58,521 nucleotides of DNA from an uncultured Actinomycetes bacterium (GTDB lineage: Bacteria; Actinomycetota; Actinomycetes; Nanopelagicales; Nanopelagicaceae): NCBI GenBank assembly GCA_903873185.1, contig CAIQNN010000043.1, forward strand, positions 1 through 58,521, written 5' to 3'. Below the pieces are notes generated by a model. That model was not told where the DNA came from, searched no databases, and saw only the letters and a list, made by a program, of their open reading frames with translations. The position numbers and the translations under genes are program-made. Positions 25,977-27,876 of the stretch are shown in pieces. The number at the start of each line of letters is the position of its first letter. Position 1 is the stretch's first letter.

Positions 25977-26681
25977 ATGAAGTCACCGATTATTTTGGCG
26001 CTAGACACCGACGAGGTAGATATTGCTCGCCAATGGATCGCTGCGACCTCGGACTCGATCTCAATATACAAAGTTGGGCTGGAATTCTTCTTAAAGAATG
26101 GCTCCGCTGGCGTCACGGCCTTGCGAGAAGCTGGCGATTTCTCCTTATTTCTTGACTTAAAATTGCACGACATTCCGAACACGGTGGGCGCGGCAACTTT
26201 GAGCGTCAAACATCTTGCGCCCAAATTTTTGACAGTTCACGCAAGTGGGGGAAGTGAAATGATTTCTGCAGCAGTGGTGGCAGCACCGAACTCCTCAATA
26301 ACTGCAGTTACCGTTTTAACATCGCTAGGCAACCAAGAGCTCGGCCAAATTGGATTTAGATCTGATGCGTTAAGTACAGCGACTGGTTTAGCCGTTCTGG
26401 CGACTGCTGCAGGTGCACGGTCCATCGTCTGTTCGCCGCTAGAAGTTGCCGCAATCCGAGCTCTGGTTACCGCTGATGTTGAATTGATAACCCCGGGGGT
26501 TCGACCTGCTGGATCCGATAATGCAGATCAAAAGCGCACAACTACGCCGCAAGCGGCGATTTCTGCTGGTGCGGATTTTGTCGTAATAGGTCGACCAATA
26601 ACTTCTTTTTGGAAGGCGGGCGCTTTGGCTATGAACACACAAGCGAAGCTAATTCTTGACTCGATCGTTGCCCAAAGCTAA
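25977..26681 (+). CDS. pyrF: Orotidine 5'-phosphate decarboxylase
   Basis: The last UMP step; 234 residues. The catalytic DLKLHD array is visible with Asp 60, Lys 62 and Asp 65 (FLDLKLHDIPNTV), and the phosphate-binding PGVRP lies near 175. The length and motif place it in the common short OMPDC group rather than the longer type found in mycobacteria. It starts directly after the pyrD stop and ends the operon. Confidence 0.94.
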   Translation: MKSPIILALDTDEVDIARQWIAATSDSISIYKVGLEFFLKNGSAGVTALREAGDFSLFLDLKLHDIPNTVGAATLSVKHLAPKFLTVHASGGSEMISAAVVAAPNSSITAVTVLTSLGNQELGQIGFRSDALSTATGLAVLATAAGARSIVCSPLEVAAIRALVTADVELITPGVRPAGSDNADQKRTTTPQAAISAGADFVVIGRPITSFWKAGALAMNTQAKLILDSIVAQS

Positions 26682-26686
26682 TCGGA

Positions 26687-26692
26687 TAAACT
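26687..26692 (+). promoter_or_regulatory. -10 hexamer for a leaderless mihF-gmk transcript
   Basis: TAAACT ends 6 nt before the GTG at 26699. No ribosome-binding site is present. This supports the full-length fusion start rather than only the internal ATG. Confidence 0.55.
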
Positions 26693-26698
26693 CATAAG

Positions 26699-27595
26699 GT
26701 GAATACCGTCCCACTCTCACCCGAGTCACGGATTAAGGCAGTTCAGAATTCAGCCATTGCTCGAAAAGAGCGCGCGCTTCTTCGAGAGCAGATTTCAAAA
26801 GGCCAACTATCAATCTTTGCTGCGATCACCGATCCGCGGGAAAGTATTCAGCGAATGCGAGTAGTTGACCTGCTATCTAGTGTTCCAGGAATTGGACTTT
26901 CGCGGGCGCAGGCAATTTTGGAGCGCTCGGGCATCTCATTGACCCGTAAGATTGGCGGGTTAGGTAAGCATCAGATCCGCGCTTTAAGAAATGAGCCCAC
27001 ATTGAACAAGGTAAATCCACCAATGGGGCGATTGATTGTGATTTCAGGCCCGGGCGGAGTTGGCAAGAGCACCATTGCCTCAGCCCTGCGACAAGATCCG
27101 AGATTTTGGGTGAGCGTCTCTGCCACAACTAGACCGCCGCGAGCTGGTGAGCGCGAAGGAGTTGATTATTTCTTCATCTCCGAGGTCGAATTTGATCGAA
27201 TGATCCAGGGCTCGGCCTTCCTCGAGTGGGCCGAGTTTGCTGGAGCTCGATACGGAACCCCAAAGTCGGGGGTGCAAGAAGGACGAGAGCTCGGCAGGCA
27301 CGTGCTGCTAGAGATTGAGATTGAAGGGGCAAAGCAGGTTGCCGCAGCCGATCCCAGCGCTTTATTGGTCTTTATCGCACCGCCTTCATGGGAGGAGCTA
27401 GAGCTTCGCTTGACCGCTCGTGGCACTGATTCTGCCGAACGCCGCGCCGCTAGGCTGGCGCTAGCAAGGGCCGAGTTGGCTGCGGCTGCCGATTTCCAGC
27501 ATGTTCTGGTCAATTCTCAAGTCGATGAGGTCATCGCGGAACTGGTATCCTTGGCGACTTCGCCCCAAGGCGGGCAGACGACACCACGCAGTTGA
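26699..27595 (+). CDS. gmk: Fused actinobacterial IHF (mIHF) domain and guanylate kinase
   Basis: A 298-residue continuous reading frame with two modules. Residues 1-100 resemble actinobacterial integration host factor: [21 protein letters not shown] and a [11 protein letters not shown] end match the mIHF DNA-binding fold. Residues 109-290 are a complete guanylate kinase with P-loop GPGGVGKST at 117-125, GMP-binding [19 protein letters not shown], and the [11 protein letters not shown] core. In mycobacteria these are two adjacent genes (mihF and gmk). The GTG start follows a 6-nt-spaced TAAACT. An internal ATG at 27023, with AAGG 11 nt upstream, could also yield free Gmk. The fused form would tie a nucleoid protein to a GMP kinase; function beyond the two domains is unknown. 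Confidence 0.9.
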
Positions 27596-27606
27596 GAGGT
27601 TCATTA

Positions 27607-27876
27607 ATGACAAGTTTGGATGGCATCACGAATCCACCGATTGATGAGTTGCTCGATAAAGCCGGCTCTAAGTACAGCTTGGTTCTTTACGCGGCTAAGC
27701 GTGCCCGGCAGATCAATGCCTACTATTCCCAACTAGGCGAGGGACTTCTTGAATATGTAGGGCCACTTGTTGACACTTATGTCCACGAGAAGCCGCTTTC
27801 AATTGCCTTGCGCGAGATTAATGAAGGTCTACTAACGATTGAAAATCTAGAGCCAAAAGCTCCTGAGGTCGCTTAA
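27607..27876 (+). CDS. rpoZ: RNA polymerase omega subunit
   Basis: An 89-residue omega subunit. [29 protein letters not shown] is the conserved N-terminal helix region and [15 protein letters not shown] the next. The ATG at 27607 is chosen because GAGAGG lies 7 nt upstream; an in-frame TTG at 27592 would add five residues. Position after gmk is standard. The fold assists beta-prime assembly and, in other bacteria, ppGpp response. Confidence 0.93.

Follow-up and report, generated by a model that had tools for sequence, protein, structure and literature searches.

The mIHF and sIHF proteins of actinobacteria (Rv1388, SCO1480; families NF041260 and H2TH_5) are free proteins of about 106 aa, whose gene lies upstream of gmk and rpoZ. 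Free mIHF is reported to rank third in abundance among mycobacterial proteins (PMC3724605), and deletion of mihF from M. tuberculosis needed gmk and rpoZ to be supplied, owing to polar effects (PMC6155035), which is consistent with a tight link between these genes. The neighbouring guanylate kinase (Rv1389/Gmk; TIGR03263) is read from its own frame in the mihF-gmk-rpoZ cluster of mycobacteria. A different kind of relative is found among genes with an internal start, such as SpaO (PMC13059759) and those of a proteoform survey (PMC11005335), where one frame with a second start gives the C-terminal domain alone as a short form. At the locus described here the genes and their order are like those of the mycobacterial cluster, but one frame replaces two: the mIHF domain has no stop and runs on into Gmk, and the kinase bears an mIHF domain on its N terminus. 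Compared with SpaO-type genes, the short form predicted here from the sequence would release a complete metabolic enzyme from the DNA-binding protein to which it is fused.

The window (the whole stretch of DNA analysed, 58,521 nt) carries the fused gene at 26699..27595 on the forward strand, as does every feature given below. It is a single intact ORF of 298 aa with a GTG start and a TGA stop, in which an mIHF (actino_IHF/H2TH_5) domain (residues 5-98, 26711..26992), a linker or junction delimited from the codon alignment (residues 99-109, 26993..27025) and a guanylate kinase domain (residues 110-286, 27026..27556, P-loop GPGGVGKST) follow one another without a stop between the domains. Pfam finds H2TH_5 and Guanylate_kin on this ORF, its closest sequences in the PDB are those of M. 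tuberculosis Gmk and Streptomyces sIHF, and the AlphaFold model of the whole fusion has a pLDDT of 92.9 and a pTM of 0.85. The single mIHF match and the single gmk match of the genome both fall inside the fused frame, and each of 20 genomes checked has one mIHF and one gmk above the cut-off. The gene is preceded by pyrF (25977..26681) and followed by rpoZ (27607..27876), then coaBC and metK, in the order carB-pyrK-pyrD-pyrF-[mIHF-gmk]-rpoZ-coaBC-metK, with the same flanks in relatives. A plasmid search gave no match.

The first-pass annotation had taken residues 1-100 for an mIHF and residues 109-290 for a complete guanylate kinase, and family scores and folds agree with it on both. Residues 5-98 reach 84.4 bits (E 6e-24) against actino_IHF NF041260, whose curated cut-off is 60 bits. 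Structure prediction, which had been proposed as the test of the fold, came out in its favour: residues 1-108 modelled alone match the sIHF-DNA structure 6bek (rmsd 1.0 A, TM 0.87 on target) and also 4itq and mIHF 6tob, all three with E <= 1e-4, so that the mIHF half, as modelled by AlphaFold, has the S13-like H2TH fold of sIHF/mIHF. The N-terminal Arg/Lys and the H2TH Gly residues are shared with mIHF and sIHF; Arg22, Arg25, Gly87, Gly89 and Gln92 show no variation among 77 fusions, and omega of this half within genera is 0.04-0.08 (strong purifying selection, from few close pairs).

The fusions differ from mIHF and sIHF at one basic position. The RRxR motif before GLG, which is usual in the mIHF family without being an established requirement for membership, reads RKIG in the window, so the first two basic residues stay and the third is gone. 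This third Arg is present in 86% of separate mIHFs outside Nanopelagicaceae; within the family, separate mIHFs have Arg, Gln or Lys there. Its replacement (26945-26956 in the window) is seen in parallel across the fused lineages, with Gly in all fusions of family f36 and in genus g103 of family f34, and Gly, Ala or Gln in Nanopelagicaceae fusions. Such a parallel change at a basic position beside the H2TH motif suggests that DNA binding was altered, not lost, and because the third Arg is replaced we would expect the mIHF half to bind DNA in a modified way.

The kinase half scores 204.7 bits (residues 110-286, E 9e-61) against guanyl_kin TIGR03263, an equivalog model with a curated cut-off of 160 bits, and in the model of the fusion it matches M. 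tuberculosis Gmk 1z8f (TM 0.87 on target), with the fold of the bacterial enzyme (1z8f, 1s4q). Residues of the P-loop and the GMP site (including position 144, R145, R148, E176, Y185, R237 and R241) are invariant in the 77 fusions, and omega within genera is 0.02-0.08 (few close pairs). We infer GMP kinase activity of the fusion, as it holds the sole gmk of the genome above the cut-off.

The fusion is real. It is present, as checked on the DNA, in 124 of 142 genomes of Nanopelagicaceae (the acI actinobacteria), single-contig chromosomes among them. Ca. Planktophila versatilis MMS-IA-79, a named relative that establishes which family this is, has the fused frame at 293 aa in its complete genome. 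A sequencing frameshift, which had been named as the finding that would undo the single frame, was rejected as its origin given this recurrence in family genomes and closed chromosomes. A protein-level signal of stops inside the frame was also dropped as proof of split genes, since it was mostly the terminal stop when the DNA was checked. Our class survey found two further fused actinobacterial lineages: family f36 (presumably Microbacteriaceae), fused in 19/19 examined genomes, and f34, where two genomes of one genus (g103) are fused, and in its sister genera the genes are separate or the locus lacks mIHF. In Mycobacterium-like and Streptomyces-like genomes mihF and gmk are separate, as the annotation had said of these neighbours, and a sample outside the class gave no clear mIHF-gmk fusion. 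Three loci from f34 and f5 genomes (L247, L260, L257) have a pyrF-gmk interval without mIHF; some actinobacteria with small genomes thus appear to have lost the mIHF gene or to carry it elsewhere. Both domains and their adjacency are already known, as are internal starts in bacterial genes; for the fusion itself we found no published account in the open-access papers searched, though the sequence databases surely contain it.

The fusion is also old. In a family tree built from seven neighbouring genes, the separate-gene genera g6, g14, g9 and g12 are basal and the crown is mostly fused, with g10 and g17 separate within it, giving at least three changes of fusion state inside the family (one gain and two reversals, or about three gains). 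In the ancestor of crown Nanopelagicaceae, the stop between adjacent mihF and gmk of a pyrF-mihF-gmk-rpoZ cluster would have been lost, leaving one two-domain protein. Genus g14 and part of g17 have both genes in one frame with one stop between them, a layout that is a natural precursor or reversal of the fusion. At three g17 loci (L088-L090) only TAG-ATG parts mihF from gmk, which puts them one substitution short of fusion, or just split. The f34 fusion is independent because it is nested among unfused sisters, and f36 is set apart from the other fused lineages by unfused families on a tree whose rooting is uncertain; both lineages probably fused independently of Nanopelagicaceae, for a minimum of two or three separate events.

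An earlier proposal of two products from this gene survives in part, with another start codon. The ATG at 27023..27025 (Met109) that had been put forward is missing in both congeners (L003, L014) and was rejected as a conserved internal start. A better candidate is the TTG at 27002..27004 (Leu102). When 120 fusions are aligned by codon, the column that holds residue 102 of the window's protein has the largest start-codon excess of 49 Val/Leu columns (z = 10.9, and z = 11.2 overall). Across g1 (the genus of the window), g7, g15 and g11 it holds GTG for 18/21 Val and TTG for 23/25 Leu (backgrounds 0.22 and 0.23), plus four ATG, with GTG or TTG in 23/23 genomes of g15 and a start codon in 3/3 of g1. 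Beyond its 10 amino-acid changes, the column has undergone only about four codon changes; the median for the other hydrophobic columns is 20. Among g2 genomes, TTG occupies the column in 10/10 of those in which a codon other than ATG follows and in 1/9 of those in which ATG follows, and this neighbouring ATG state switches five times along the tree.

Three codons upstream of the start column, GAG (Glu99, 26993..26995) would form the core of a putative internal ribosome-binding site, weak in the window; it is found in 52/56 genomes of relatives against a background of 0.53. Pairing with the anti-SD is predicted to be strong for g2 (19/19) and g7 (76%), intermediate for g15 and weak for g1. In the window the ribosome site comes to -1.9 kcal/mol at TTG 27002 and -3.9 at ATG 27023, with a background median of -2.4. 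A candidate start codon with a predicted ribosome site inside the frame is conserved in g2, g7 and g15, while in g1 the column is conserved and the site weak, among three genomes only. At the junction, neither Ca. Planktophila versatilis nor the f36 fusions keep a consistent start codon; the internal start, GAG and TANNNT signals are mostly absent from Planktophila-like genera and f36, which by this pattern would make only the fusion.

Promoter-like boxes occur at three places. The promoter that had been annotated 6 nt before the fusion start comes down to TAAACT (26687..26692), a leaderless-type TANNNT -10-like box before the GTG; a sigma-70 scan found no -35/-10 pair before the fused frame, and that reading was set aside. 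The leaderless layout TANNNT-N5-7-start is found in 26/26 genomes of g16 and 11/13 of g4, against 1/3 of g1, 2/28 of g7 and 3/19 of g2. Inside the mIHF part, TAAGAT (26947..26952, codons 83-85; TAGAAT in relatives) is a second -10-like box about 50 nt upstream of the candidate start, with no -35; in M. tuberculosis, TANNNT -10 boxes occur without a conserved -35 (PMC3898074). The codons for Arg83-Arg/Lys84-Ile85 are CGT-A[GA][AG]-AT, placing TAR at the Arg-Arg/Lys pair, in 62/74 genomes of g1, g2, g7 and g15, where codon use would predict 4.6; a control Arg-Arg pair gave 4 observed against 2.9 expected. In g16 the box is found only in genomes with the internal start (10/15 vs 0/11), a link that was not significant in a tree-aware test (four supported pairs, too few independent events). 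The strongest synonymous conservation of the gene falls on the extended -10 box TGGTATCCT (27543..27551) in the last gmk codons at the 3′ end of the frame; its pattern TGnTAnnnT is kept in 119/120 fused genomes, and it is the probable promoter of rpoZ. At g7 loci (e.g. L018, L023, L026) the start codon of mihF and the stop codon of pyrF overlap (TTGA), which suggests that mihF there is translationally coupled to pyrF rather than served by its own promoter. Two arrangements would then exist, a front promoter with one product (g4 and part of g16) and pyrF coupling with an internal gmk start (g2, g7 and g15), and the window has traces of both.

The reading that we consider likely, taken jointly, is of a fusion that supplies mIHF and GMP kinase, with free Gmk also made in the window's branch. 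A working two-domain protein is most likely: one molecule, both domains intact, would supply the cell's mIHF and GMP kinase, and the mIHF half should still bind DNA. In the branch of g1, g2, g7 and g15 the old gmk start would survive inside the frame, and the NTG codon (TTG 27002 here), the GAG/AGGAG site and the internal TANNNT-like box may together give free Gmk beside the fusion; most of g4, about half of g16 and f36 have lost these signals and would make the fusion alone. The main competitor, which we rate as distinctly the less probable while giving it real weight, is that all molecules are mIHF-Gmk in the window genome too, and that the NTG, GAG and TANNNT conservation reflects some other constraint on DNA or mRNA. 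The weak ribosome site of the window fits this, and the fusions of Ca. Planktophila versatilis and f36 that lack a consistent junction start indicate that obligate fusions are viable, but the exchange among ATG, GTG and TTG and the TTG-or-ATG alternation in g2 are hard to explain otherwise. Cleavage of the full-length protein into mIHF and Gmk after translation would solve the stoichiometry problem posed by so abundant a free mIHF (PMC3724605), but the variable linker shows no conserved cleavage motif, and we give it only a very slight chance.

Whether the join matters in itself is a separate question. That a stop was lost by chance during streamlining, with the mIHF half a passenger that has no function beyond co-expression, is improbable in our judgement: the genomes are small (1-2 Mb) and some related f34 and f5 genomes do without mIHF between pyrF and gmk, but the omega of 0.04-0.08 disfavours a passenger domain, its five invariant residues persist through the fusions, and mIHF is single copy wherever checked. 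A guarantee of co-expression, as had been suggested, is plausible, but it applies equally to the operon that the fusion replaced, so it does not set the fusion apart. Linked activities, with the kinase on the nucleoid or DNA binding that answers to the GMP/GDP state, have a slim chance; a short linker with a confident two-domain model, the repeated independent fusions and the parallel loss of the third Arg speak for them, but the annotation's idea that DNA binding follows GMP/GDP state found no support, and the gap between the aligned domains, which ranges from 9 to 81 nt across the genera, speaks against a precise domain-domain switch. A wider joint reading we regard as unlikely, though less so than a passenger domain: that the kinase sits on DNA, a nucleoid protein having been joined to the sole GMP kinase on two or three occasions at least, with a parallel change of the DNA-contact motif, and that in one branch an internal promoter, ribosome site and start codon embedded in the coding sequence maintain some free enzyme, so that two overlapping gene programmes fix how much of the kinase is DNA-bound and how much is free. 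An assembly or sequencing artefact has a negligible chance, since the window genome is a 65-contig assembly but shares the fusion with closed chromosomes of its family.

Few freshwater bacteria are as numerous as the acI actinobacteria, and most Nanopelagicaceae genomes have no separate mihF or gmk. Any account of mIHF as an essential and abundant nucleoid protein has to explain here how it works while carrying a 20 kDa kinase, and a knockout of either the mIHF or the GMP kinase function would remove both. Separate genes, a fusion with an internal start and an obligate fusion form a natural series for the stoichiometry of a fusion.
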